Shown: positions 22,854-26,258 of the stretch, piece by piece
Numbering within the stretch: the stretch's first letter is position 1
How the letters are laid out: each line of letters starts with the position of its first letter
Virus record (IMG/VR): IMGVR_UViG_3300042463_000838
Location: 1 to 34,327 of that record
Reading direction: 5' to 3' (one strand)
Source of the DNA: a virus
DNA: 34,327 nucleotides
Translations under genes and position numbers: made by a program
The notes under the pieces: model-generated
Database searches by the model: none
What the model saw: the letters and a program-made list of their open reading frames with translations, nothing else
Told to the model about the DNA's origin: nothing

Positions 22854-23068
22854 CTCTCCGATTCAAAGGCGTGATGGGTGAGCCCGATGCGGTGCGCGGT
22901 GTATGGCTCAACGGCAAAGTTTGCGAATATTCGGGATATGGCGAGCAGACGCTGACCAAGTTGCGCGCTGGCAATGACGTTTGCCGAGCCGATGGCAATG
23001 AGGCGGTTGTTATCCCCTACCGCATCCGCATTTACATCAAGCCGAACCAGCCAAAGCGGGGGGAGTGA
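22850..23068 (+). CDS. Hypothetical small protein
   Basis: 72 residues, ATGA overlap on the left and TGATG on the right, so it is coupled between its neighbours. It is beta-rich (TLRFKGVMGEPDAVRGVWLNGKVCEYSG, EAVVIPYRIRIYIKPNQPKRGE). No family was recognised. Confidence 0.6.
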   Translation: MTLRFKGVMGEPDAVRGVWLNGKVCEYSGYGEQTLTKLRAGNDVCRADGNEAVVIPYRIRIYIKPNQPKRGE

Positions 23069-23829
23069 TGGAAAAGCTTCGGCTTCTTTCTCTTTTTGCG
23101 GGCATTGGCGGCTTCGAACTTGGTTTGGAGCGTTCGGGTGCATTTGAAACCGTTGCCCAATGCGAGATTGACCCATTCTGCCGCCGCGTGCTGGCGAAAC
23201 ACTGGCCCCAGGTGAAGCGCTATGAAGATGTCCGCGAGCTTACAGCAGCAAGACTTACTGCCGATGGAATTGCCGTTGACGCCATCTGTGGCGGCTTCCC
23301 ATGCCAAGACCTTTCCGTTGCTGGAAAGCGCGCTGGAATTGAAGGCGCGCGCAGCGGACTATGGTCAGAGTTCGCCCGCCTTATTGGCGAGATTCGACCG
23401 CGCGTCGTATTCGTGGAGAACGTCACAGGGCTGCTTAGTGGCCCAAGTGAACAGCCAGGCGGATGGTTTGGCCGCGTTTTCGGAGACTTGGCCTCGATCG
23501 GGTATGATGCGGAATGGCATTGCATACCGGCTGGGAACATCGGCGCGCCCCACGAGCGAGACCGTTCGTGGATTATTGCCTACACTTACCAAGCGCGACT
23601 TCAAAAGCGACCGATCTTCGCCAGAATGGCGGGAATGGAAACTGGCGCAGCCTGGCGGCAAGACGCTTCCGTTTGTTCTGGGTGGCCTGCTGAACCCAAC
23701 GTTCTGCGAGTGGCTGATGGGGTTCCCAATCGGGTGGACCGAATTGGAGCACTCGGAAACGCCGTAGTTCCTCAAATCCCCGAACTGCTTGGCCGCGCCT
23801 ATGCTCAGGCAATGGGGATGCGCCCATGA
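23068..23829 (+). CDS. dcm: C5-cytosine DNA methyltransferase
   Basis: 253 residues, with a GGGGGGAG site before the TGATG start. The motifs are in order: LLSLFAGIGGFELG (SAM binding, 6-19), GGFPCQDLS with catalytic C79, VFVENV (E117), GAPHERDRSW (motif VIII) and GNAVVPQI (motif X, 230-237). It is shorter than host enzymes because the target recognition region (about 172-212) is small. It methylates cytosine in DNA, most likely protecting the phage from host restriction. The same DNA also carries a long gene-like frame from 23228. Confidence 0.9.
   Translation: MEKLRLLSLFAGIGGFELGLERSGAFETVAQCEIDPFCRRVLAKHWPQVKRYEDVRELTAARLTADGIAVDAICGGFPCQDLSVAGKRAGIEGARSGLWSEFARLIGEIRPRVVFVENVTGLLSGPSEQPGGWFGRVFGDLASIGYDAEWHCIPAGNIGAPHERDRSWIIAYTYQARLQKRPIFARMAGMETGAAWRQDASVCSGWPAEPNVLRVADGVPNRVDRIGALGNAVVPQIPELLGRAYAQAMGMRP
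23228..23767 (+). CDS. Nested gene-like frame inside dcm
   Basis: 179 residues in the +1 frame relative to dcm, starting ATG at 23228 (or 23222). It reads MSASLQQQDLLPME, ASHAKTFPLLESALELKARA, YGQSSPALLARFDRASYSW, GLAAFSETWPRSGMMRNGIA, GLLNPTFCEWLMGFPIGW, ending TELEHSETP. These blocks look like a phage protein type that I recall as separate hypothetical proteins found near dcm genes. The same bases give LASIGYDAEWHCIPAG and VADGVPNRVDR in dcm, so both frames look selected. No strong ribosome site precedes it. It may be an overprinted gene, or homologues may be misframed dcm genes. Confidence 0.45.
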   Translation: MSASLQQQDLLPMELPLTPSVAASHAKTFPLLESALELKARAADYGQSSPALLARFDRASYSWRTSQGCLVAQVNSQADGLAAFSETWPRSGMMRNGIAYRLGTSARPTSETVRGLLPTLTKRDFKSDRSSPEWREWKLAQPGGKTLPFVLGGLLNPTFCEWLMGFPIGWTELEHSETP

Positions 23830-24179
23830 TGCGCCTAGAGGTGACGCTTCCTCTCCCGCCATCTGCCAACGCATGCTTTCGGAATGCGCCCGGCATTGGC
23901 CGCGTGAAGACCGAGGCTTACCGCGCATGGGCAAAGGGCGCGATGCCCGAATGCTTGCGCGTGCGTCGTGGCGTGGTCGGCAAAGGCTACCGGCTGCATC
24001 TGGTCTTGCCCGCCAACATGCGCGGCGACCTCGATAACCGCATCAAGCCCACGCAAGACCTCTTGGTCAAGGGTGGCGTGCTGCCTGATGACCGCCACGC
24101 GGCTTCTATCATGGCAGAGCGCGGCACTCACACAGAACCCTTTGTCATTTGCATTATCGAATGGAGTGAATCCCCATGA
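23826..24179 (+). CDS. rusA: RusA-type Holliday junction resolvase
   Basis: 117 residues, ATGA overlap with dcm; an ATG one codon later is equally possible. LEVTLPLPPSANACFRN is the family N-terminus and NMRGDLDNRIKPTQDLLVKGGVLPDD carries the acidic residues D68, D70, D78, D88 and D89 and the conserved Lys, as in RusA. The enzyme cuts four-way junctions formed during recombination and replication and prepares DNA for packaging. It complements the annealing protein and NinB of the leftward operon. Confidence 0.9.
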   Translation: MMRLEVTLPLPPSANACFRNAPGIGRVKTEAYRAWAKGAMPECLRVRRGVVGKGYRLHLVLPANMRGDLDNRIKPTQDLLVKGGVLPDDRHAASIMAERGTHTEPFVICIIEWSESP

Positions 24180-24835
24180 TCCCTGTAGCAGAGCCGCGCA
24201 CGGCAGAGGAAGTCATCGCGAATGCGAAGGCTGCCCGCGCTCGCCTGAATGGTAAACCGGACATGACGCCTGTTGTGTTGCCGGAGATAGCCCTTGCAGC
24301 CAAGAGGCGCAGAGAACAGGAGGCGCGAGAGGAAGAAGCTAGGCGACAAGCTGAACTAAAGGCCGCTCGCGAAGAGCGTGAGCGTCTTCAGCGCGAGGCT
24401 GACAAAGAAGCGCTCCGTCGTGGCATGGAAGAAAGTTTGGCAAAGACGCGGGAGGGGGCCGACATTGAGGCCCTTGGTTTGCAGGAGGCCCGCGAGGCGA
24501 GGCTTTTTCGCATTAGTCCGAGGCGATACCTGGAGCAGCTTTGCCGGGAACAGGGATTCACTGTTTGGGCCATTATTGGGCTCAGCAAGCGGGCCAATAT
24601 TGTCCGCGCCCGGCACGCGATGATTTTGAGTGTTGCGCGCAAGTTTCCTAATTTGTCTCTTGGTCAGCTTGGGATGCTTTTTGAGCGGGACCATACCACG
24701 ATCATCCACGCCTTGAGAAGGGCGAAGCAGGCCGAGGCAATAGCGGCTTCTCGCGAGCCTTGTGAAGCCGTCATCGACTTTAATGAAATGCGCGCGGTTG
24801 CAGCTGACCATCGCTCTTTTGGGGGGCTGCCATGA
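24176..24835 (+). CDS. DnaA domain-IV (HTH) protein
   Basis: 219 residues, ATGA overlap on both sides. Residues about 40-95 are a charged Arg/Glu/Ala coiled coil. Residues about 117-186 resemble DnaA domain IV: VRARHAMILSVARKFPNLSLGQLGMLFERDHTTIIHALRR, including the DHTT (172-175) signature that reads the DnaA box. The AAA+ and oligomerisation domains of DnaA are absent. It may recruit host replication factors to the phage origin or compete with host DnaA. No cluster of DnaA boxes was found in the window. Confidence 0.8.
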   Translation: MIPVAEPRTAEEVIANAKAARARLNGKPDMTPVVLPEIALAAKRRREQEAREEEARRQAELKAAREERERLQREADKEALRRGMEESLAKTREGADIEALGLQEAREARLFRISPRRYLEQLCREQGFTVWAIIGLSKRANIVRARHAMILSVARKFPNLSLGQLGMLFERDHTTIIHALRRAKQAEAIAASREPCEAVIDFNEMRAVAADHRSFGGLP

Positions 24836-25425
24836 GGCAGGGCGCATCACGACATGCGCTGTCTGAGCGCGGCAACGACCTTTACGAGACGCCTGAAATT
24901 TGCACGCTTGCGGCCATCCGTGAAGGCGTGTTGTCGGGTATCAAAACGGCATGGGAGCCAAGTGCCGGGCGCGGCGCGATGTCTCGCGTTCTTCGCGCGC
25001 ATGGCATTGCGGTGATCGCTCATGATCTGGCGCACTATGAGGGCGCTGATTCCGATATTGTTCCAGGGCGGGATTTCCTCCTAGAGTTCAACCCGCCTGA
25101 GGGCGTGGACGCGATTGTTACAAATCCGCCCTTCAAGGTGGCTGATGATTTCATTCGTCACGGCTTGGGGCTTAGATTCCGCGTTATCGTTCTGCTTCGC
25201 GCGATGGCAATCGAAGGGGCTTGCAGGGCCGATTTGATTGACCGCCATTTGCGGCGGTTCTGGATTGGCATTGACCGTCCACCCGCGATGCATCGCGAAG
25301 GCTGGGAAGGGAACAAGCTTTCGAACAGCGGAGCACCTTTTGCGTGGTTTGATTTCCACCCGAAACCCCGGCCTGATGATGAGCCGATAGAGCTTCGCCG
25401 GTTCTGGTGGAGGGCGCGGCCATGA
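24832..25425 (+). CDS. N6-adenine-type DNA methyltransferase
   Basis: 197 residues, ATGA overlap. NDLYETPEICTLAAI, WEPSAGRGAMSRVLRAHG (SAM-binding motif I, 41-58) and VDAIVTNPPFKVADDFI (motif IV NPPF, 98-101) show a class I SAM-dependent methyltransferase of the adenine-amino type. IDRPPAMHREGWEGNKL near 150 fits the family. It most likely modifies phage DNA against restriction. No matching restriction enzyme is nearby. Confidence 0.8.
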   Translation: MRQGASRHALSERGNDLYETPEICTLAAIREGVLSGIKTAWEPSAGRGAMSRVLRAHGIAVIAHDLAHYEGADSDIVPGRDFLLEFNPPEGVDAIVTNPPFKVADDFIRHGLGLRFRVIVLLRAMAIEGACRADLIDRHLRRFWIGIDRPPAMHREGWEGNKLSNSGAPFAWFDFHPKPRPDDEPIELRRFWWRARP

Positions 25426-26258
25426 GCGCCCCGTGGATGCCCCTTTATGTCGCTGATTACATCGCAGACACGGCGCATCTGTCTGCCGCTGAGCATGGCG
25501 CTTACCTGCTTCTCATCATGCACTATTGGCGCGTCGGAAAGCTGCCAACCGACGAGCGGCAATTGCAGCGCATCGCCCGCATGAGCGCGCGCGAGTGGGC
25601 TAATTCTCGCGACACGATTGCGGCCTTCTTTGATGCCGACTGGACGCACAACCGCATCGAAAGCGAGCTTGCCAAGTCCAATTCGAAGTCAACCGCCAGA
25701 GCCGAAGCAGGTTCGCGTGGTGGGCATGCTAAAGCATTGAAAAATAACGAAGCGGGCTTGGCAAATGCTACAATTTTGCCAGAGCAAAAAGATGCGGTTG
25801 CTCTAGCATCTTCTTCATTATCACAATCAAACACATCTTCACTTCGTTCAGATGTGGAGCGCAAGGCGCGAAAATCCCCCCCAGATTGCAGCGAAAGCCT
25901 GATTGTTCTCGGTTGCCCGGAAAGCCTTGTTTCTGACTGGAAAGCCGTTCGCAAAGCCAAGAATGCCGGCCCGATATCGCAGCCGGTTGTTGACCGATTG
26001 AAGCGGGAAGCTGTGAAAGCAGGAATTTCGGTTGTGCGGGCTGTCACGATTTGCGTTGAGCGGGGCTGGCAGGGGTTTGACGCTGACTGGATTGCGAAGC
26101 CGGGCGCTCGCGCTGGCCCATCGCACGATCCGCCGCGCCGTGGCTCAGCAGGCATGTTTGACGCATTGCAGGAAATCCGAAGGGAAATGGAAGATGGTGC
26201 GAGGCCCAACGATTTTGGACAGTTTGGAAGCCCTGTTCTCCGCATTTCCAGCGGGTGA
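25422..26258 (+). CDS. DUF1376 (YdaU-like) replication protein
   Basis: 278 residues, ATGA overlap. Residues 5-75 are a DUF1376 domain: PWMPLYVADYIADTAHLSAAEHGAYLLLI, RVGKLPTDERQLQRIARMS. A Ser/Ala-rich linker is followed by CPESLVSDWKAVRKAKNAGPIS and a helical region containing WQGFDADWI, which resemble the C-terminal part of phage replication initiators. It probably helps assemble the replication complex with the DnaA-like protein. The linker is AT-rich compared with both domains. Confidence 0.8.
   Translation: MSAPWMPLYVADYIADTAHLSAAEHGAYLLLIMHYWRVGKLPTDERQLQRIARMSAREWANSRDTIAAFFDADWTHNRIESELAKSNSKSTARAEAGSRGGHAKALKNNEAGLANATILPEQKDAVALASSSLSQSNTSSLRSDVERKARKSPPDCSESLIVLGCPESLVSDWKAVRKAKNAGPISQPVVDRLKREAVKAGISVVRAVTICVERGWQGFDADWIAKPGARAGPSHDPPRRGSAGMFDALQEIRREMEDGARPNDFGQFGSPVLRISSG

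Follow-up and report, generated by a model that had tools for sequence, protein, structure and literature searches.

The question raised by this locus is whether a long open reading frame, which lies shifted by one base within a C5-cytosine DNA methyltransferase gene of a phage, is a by-product of that gene or a gene in its own right, and what its product would have to do with the methyltransferase. The window, that is, the whole stretch of DNA that was analysed, is a complete IMG/VR virus record of 34,327 bases. Its methyltransferase gene, referred to as alpha in the following, occupies positions 23068–23829 of the plus strand and encodes 253 amino acids; the second frame, beta, lies wholly within alpha, and about 550 bases are common to both. 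A preliminary description of this DNA had reported a +1 frame open for about 180 codons, with blocks that read as a plausible protein; we count 181 codons and find the quoted blocks in place. The start had been placed at 23228, which is indeed an in-frame ATG, but only the second one, as the ORF begins at 23222. The features of the locus are as follows:

23068–23829, plus strand: alpha, C5-cytosine methyltransferase large subunit with motifs I–VIII and X (PF00145, phrog_363, AF2 model); ATG at 23068, stop codon at 23827–23829
23095–23112, plus strand: alpha motif I, FAGIGG (sequence and alignment A4)
23210–23215, plus strand: AGGTGA, Shine-Dalgarno-like, 6 nt upstream of the beta ATG at 23222 (direct sequence reading)
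23222–23767, plus strand: beta, from ATG to stop, the putative subunit with the recognition region and motif IX; 181 aa, +1 frame relative to alpha
23290–23307, plus strand: alpha motif IV with the catalytic Pro-Cys, GGFPCQ, in the upstream part of the overlap (alignment A4)
23416–23424, plus strand: alpha motif VI, ENV; the beta reading of these bases falls near SWRTSQ (alignment A4 and frame comparison)
23502–23566, plus strand: alpha motif VII–VIII region, YDAEWHCIPAGNIGAPHERDR, which reads SGMMRNGIAYRL in the beta frame
23593–23683, plus strand: presumed target-recognition region, under constraint in the beta frame alone; in alpha a disordered neutral linker (NN/SN, NN/NS and alpha model)
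23690–23746, plus strand: motif IX in the beta frame, LNPTFCEWLMGFPIGWTEL; the alpha frame gives EPNVLRVADGVPNRVDR
23746–23793, plus strand: alpha motif X, GALGNAVVPQIPELLG, at the 3' end of the overlap, with the beta stop inside it (alignment A4)
23826–24179, plus strand: RusA-like Holliday junction resolvase, the downstream neighbour (phrog_34, E 7e-13; PF05866)

The start of the RusA-like gene and the alpha stop overlap by 4 nt. The protein encoded at 24176–24835 has a long charged region followed by a C-terminal DnaA-type helix-turn-helix (PF08299, E 1e-9), and its gene lies near a primosomal-protein homologue at 25407–26258. Two genes past the RusA-like gene, at 24832–25425, there is a second methyltransferase-like gene with an NPPF motif (phrog_799, E 5e-37), so that the phage may modify its own DNA in two ways. 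No restriction enzyme was recognized among the neighbours examined.

Evidence for a second gene in the +1 frame

Alpha has the hallmarks of a C5-methyltransferase. It matches PF00145 (E 8e-43) and PHROG 363 (E 3e-76), and motifs I, IV (Pro-Cys), VI (ENV), VIII and X are all present. Residues F10, G12, P78, C79, E117, N118, R164, R166 and N231 are invariant in alignment A4, as is the entire stretch G76 F77 P78 C79. The PF00145 match, however, extends only over positions 2–167 of the 324 in the profile, and motif IX and a target-recognition domain do not complete the chain; motif IX is found in the +1 frame instead.

The nested translation, whose search against databases the preliminary description had called for, matches PHROG 1008, annotated as ‘DNA methyltransferase’ (E 5e-21), and has no match in Pfam, NCBIfam or PDB sequence searches. 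With tblastn, it retrieves 91 phage records, among them phages of Mycobacterium, Gordonia, Vibrio, Stenotrophomonas, Bacteroides and cyanobacteria, and at every matching locus that was checked, an alpha ORF lies in register on the same DNA. The nested frame thus belongs to a conserved phage protein family, as had been supposed, but not to one of separate hypotheticals near dcm genes: as annotators chose one frame or the other, these apparent hypotheticals are simply one locus read in its other frame. PHROG 363 and PHROG 1008 are listed as two families, without a statement that they form a two-frame gene pair.

Such matches need to be read with caution. The good conservation of alpha by itself makes its +1 translation look conserved: even after synonymous shuffling, the window gene reaches 96 bits against a beta HMM built in this study. 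Likewise, the +1 frame of the window gene stays open in 3.5% of its shuffles, which makes the open frame of this gene weak evidence by itself. The nested frame could therefore be seen as a by-product of a GC-rich, conserved dcm gene with few stops, its similarity to other nested frames being induced by the conservation of alpha. For this reason, raw tblastn and HMM E-values of the +1 frame were dropped as evidence; taken alone, they are poor evidence, and the case rests on shuffle and substitution tests. We also note the canonical single-chain enzyme of Lactobacillus phage SA-C12 (L305:1501–2625), in which the beta HMM finds a match in the +1 frame (E 7.5e-12) that scores slightly above shuffles (z 3.2) in a frame with 15 stops over the gene. 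This match is mostly induced by the codons of alpha motifs VI and VII and illustrates the danger of frame-induced homology.

The shuffle tests draw on 80 viral loci, which were gathered by the alpha protein alone, so that beta had no role in their choice; 62 non-redundant ones (<90% amino acid identity) were kept. In 60 of these 62 homologues, the +1 frame stays open across the overlap, as opposed to 0.68 expected from synonymous shuffling of each gene. It contains 4 stops where 270 are expected, while the +2 frame contains 573; the frequent stops in homologues that would have spoken against a second gene are thus not seen. Against the beta HMM, the real window gene reaches 240 bits (z 9.9 relative to its shuffles), and the C-terminal block with motif IX alone scores 47 bits versus −0.5 in shuffles (z 16.5), a score that is not induced by alpha. 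The PHROG 1008 match of beta exceeds the induced similarity as well.

Substitution patterns tell the same story. The third-codon-position diversity of alpha falls from 0.63 upstream of the overlap to successive values of 0.56, 0.37 and 0.49 within it and returns to 0.64 downstream, and the ratio of position 3 to position 1 diversity runs from 2.7 over 2.2, 1.3 and 0.9 to 2.9 along the gene. In 18 independent close pairs, changes that are silent in alpha and nonsynonymous in beta amount to 0.195 per site outside the overlap and to 0.047 within it, whereas changes silent in both frames stay at 0.2–0.3. This synonymous constraint on the first frame goes along with purifying selection on the second, which we followed by region in 40 independent pairs, using NN/SN for alpha and NN/NS for beta. 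Before the overlap, the values of 0.14 (alpha) and 0.83 (beta) indicate no second gene. Beta residues 1–48 are weakly constrained, and over motifs VI–VIII both frames are under constraint (alpha 0.28, beta 0.45). Between motifs VIII and IX, where the sequence is variable, alpha is neutral (0.98, 95% interval 0.89–1.09) and beta constrained (0.53, 0.42–0.64), and in the motif IX segment the values are 0.49 for alpha and 0.32 for beta. By these regional ratios, it is beta that holds the recognition region and motif IX, and alpha does no more than read across them.

Taken together, the shuffle and NN/NS tests refute the notion of a by-product, to which we assign practically no probability. We regard the nested frame as genuine and functional, and the suggestion that both products are still encoded together at this locus is borne out.

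Motif IX and the recognition region

The C-terminus of beta, LNPTFCEWLMGFPIGWTEL, is methyltransferase motif IX. In relatives from Rickettsiales/Midichloriaceae (L242, L248, L251 and L270) and in three viral ones (L148, L153 and L155), RLNPDWVEWLMGFP.SWT is found in the alpha frame, directly before motif X. L251 and L270 are single-chain enzymes that PF00145 covers at near full length (2–323 and 3–322 of 324), and they read LNPDWVEWLMG.P in the alpha frame just before motif X. A further relative is the 410-residue protein WP_071960656.1 from an Alteromonas mediterranea plasmid (L267:1237–2466; NZ_CP018025.1), a permuted fusion of alpha and beta in which motifs I–VIII and X are followed by a recognition region and motif IX. 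After alpha, the same chain carries LHPHFCEAFMGYPLDHTAL (motif IX HMM, E 3e-8), and the +1 frame of its alpha part is interrupted and devoid of the beta signal (z 0.9). With motif IX in the chain and the +1 frame closed, this protein serves as a negative control as well as being a fusion found in nature.

The same comparison clarifies a stretch of alpha. Read one base earlier, the codons of motif IX in beta give EPxVxRVADGVPxRVDR, which is conserved in alpha. The alpha segment VADGVPNRVDR, previously taken for a canonical Dcm segment, is therefore a frame-shifted shadow of motif IX, and the region surrounding it is the least constrained one in alpha.

For the N-terminal part of beta, no homologue was found outside this overlap. 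This would suit a separate protein, such as a regulator or an anti-restriction factor, that was overprinted on dcm and is unrelated to methylation. We consider this very unlikely, as beta has motif IX and alpha is without it, as the fusion and the single-chain relatives place this motif in the methyltransferase chain, and as beta was never found without alpha; a standalone beta is absent from 264 viral, phage and bacterial loci and from 33 genome loci, in scans that are biased towards the conserved SGMMRNG block and that rare forms could escape. Rather, the ancestral enzyme is divided between the two frames, each of which has a part of it. The idea that the nested family arose by overprinting of dcm consequently needs to be divided: the N-terminal part of beta does overprint alpha motifs, but its C-terminal part represents the ancestral motif IX and the recognition region preceding it.

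Two observations concern variants of the beta frame. In the Rickettsiales/Midichloriaceae and viral relatives with motifs IX and X in the alpha frame, a +1 ORF of about 150–180 codons, which contains the N-terminal block of beta as well as WPTPTASD repeats, persists nonetheless and scores above shuffles (z 5–7). This ORF represents either a relic or a third layout, in which only the recognition region would reside in beta. In longer homologues (e.g. L115, L106 and L112), repeated (L/W)WPTPxAxD.. blocks enlarge the recognition region of beta, which corresponds to positions 23546–23683 of the window, as if recognition modules had been duplicated in the beta frame while alpha remained open.

Start signal, predicted structures and proposed mechanism

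At the position in alpha where beta begins, a Shine-Dalgarno-like tetramer and an ATG occur in 76 of 155 non-redundant homologues, compared to 20.3 in synonymous shuffles; a strong Shine-Dalgarno sequence thus precedes the beta start in only about half of them. The AF2 model of alpha (overall pLDDT 82, pTM 0.81) is in line with the neutral linker, as residues 191–207 and 213–219 fall below a pLDDT of 50. Its best match is M.HhaI (Z 25.6), to which 227 residues align over chain residues 10–325; alpha accordingly has both ends of the enzyme and lacks about 100 residues in the middle. The beta model is of low confidence (pLDDT 60, pTM 0.23) and was set aside as too poor for a fold search.

We favour, with a probability of roughly 0.85, the reading that a single C5-cytosine DNA methyltransferase is encoded here in two overlapping frames, as two polypeptides in the manner of M.EcoHK31I; the single-chain and fused relatives support this. 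Alpha would provide the catalytic Rossmann domain (motifs I–VIII) and motif X, and thereby AdoMet binding and catalysis. Beta would be initiated inside alpha from its own Shine-Dalgarno sequence and ATG and would supply the target-recognition region and motif IX. Its N-terminal extension, which is overprinted on the codons of alpha motifs V–VIII and has the conserved residues SETWPRSGMMRNGIAYQL, probably docks to alpha. The two chains probably then assemble to the equivalent of a single-chain C5-methyltransferase that modifies the phage DNA. Orphan methyltransferases of phages generally protect the phage DNA from host restriction, which is probably their role here too. The arrangement probably goes back to a single-chain enzyme that was frameshifted; each frame would then have kept the part it encoded and overprinted the rest.

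As the two frames hold the N- and C-terminal parts of the enzyme in the right order, programmed ribosomal frameshifting might instead join alpha motifs I–VIII to the recognition region and motif IX of the beta frame, with beta being mainly a C-terminal half. This appears unlikely, though a little less so than an unrelated beta protein: the beta codons over motifs V–VIII, which precede every useful shift point, are under constraint in the beta frame (NN/NS 0.45), the internal Shine-Dalgarno sequence and ATG are enriched, and a single shift would drop alpha motif X, which is nevertheless retained.

Distribution, known systems and significance

The layout with motif IX in the +1 frame and motif X in alpha is found in 224 of 264 loci, and both motifs lie in the alpha frame in 6 of this set. 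Plasmids of Trichormus, Lacticaseibacillus paracasei and the archaeon Methanomethylovorans have motif IX in a nested +1 frame too, as does a prophage-like locus of E. coli PT62. The beta profile matches in 25 of 398 genomes from a single bacterial phylum, the one to which L228 (Thalassospira) belongs and which we take to be Pseudomonadota, and in all 33 genome loci that were fetched (L272–L304), the beta ORF occupies the +1 frame of an alpha ORF that overlaps it. In an architecture tree, the Rickettsiales/Midichloriaceae loci with motif IX in alpha cluster together (86/54, not starred), and the deep forks are without resolution.

Public records usually give one frame: alpha only, as in the RefSeq copies in E. 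coli and plasmids, or beta only, as ‘hypothetical protein’ or ‘DNA-cytosine methyltransferase’. Curated actinophage records give both genes where the overlap is partial, a form that is also present in Mycobacterium phage Camperdownii. In E. coli PCP07014 (L307:1001–1762), RefSeq calls alpha a pseudogene with an internal stop; the beta-frame ORF at 1371–1778 is open there and includes motif IX.

A two-polypeptide C5-methyltransferase, M.EcoHK31I (YGGCCR), was reportedly described by Lee, Kam and Shaw in 1995, and its smaller ORF is reported to be nested in the larger one in another frame. In the window, the small ORF is nested in the large one in another frame. In that enzyme, the larger chain has motifs I–VIII and X, as alpha does, and motif IX resides on a separate, smaller polypeptide, as in beta (PMC3404938). 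By contrast, the recognition domain of M.EcoHK31I is predicted in the larger chain, with only motif IX on the smaller one (PMC3404938), whereas the window has it in beta, given that this region is neutral in alpha (0.98) and constrained in beta (0.53). The window locus further differs in being a phage gene with no restriction enzyme recognized among the neighbours examined.

M.AquI (CYCGRG) likewise has motifs I–VIII on one chain and motif IX on the other; its second chain carries motif X as well (PMC3404938), unlike the window, where motif X is on alpha. A split of this type, with the recognition region and motifs IX and X on a partly overlapping beta, is realized in a few relatives, including the actinophages L002, L003 and L257 and locus L135, which have motif IX and an X-like stretch on beta. 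For the window, it is exceedingly improbable, as motif X lies in alpha and beta stops before completing it; the M.AquI-like relatives are better seen as a sister arrangement. Single-chain enzymes such as M.HhaI and M.HaeIII (PF00145) resemble alpha in motifs and, for M.HhaI, in fold, but in the window the recognition region and motif IX have moved to the other frame.

The two-chain kind has been known since 1995; its breadth across phages, bacterial and archaeal plasmids and chromosomes, and its reciprocal layout, look new. In the literature searched, we found no description of the nested phage methyltransferase family or its breadth, although absence there does not prove novelty. We lean towards the broader view that an ancestral methyltransferase was split by frame, with each frame retaining one part and inventing the rest, and that such reciprocal overprinting is a widespread, old and largely unannotated coding mode in phages, plasmids (one of them archaeal) and bacterial genomes.

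In phage, plasmid and bacterial records, the annotation of many ‘orphan dcm’ genes omits the recognition subunit or gives that subunit alone. Expression tests based on such one-frame annotations would fail or give misleading results, and the automatic prediction of specificity would search the wrong frame. Moreover, a same-strand overlap of about 180 codons, with strong statistics and hundreds of natural replicates, makes this family a good system for the study of two proteins that share the same DNA.
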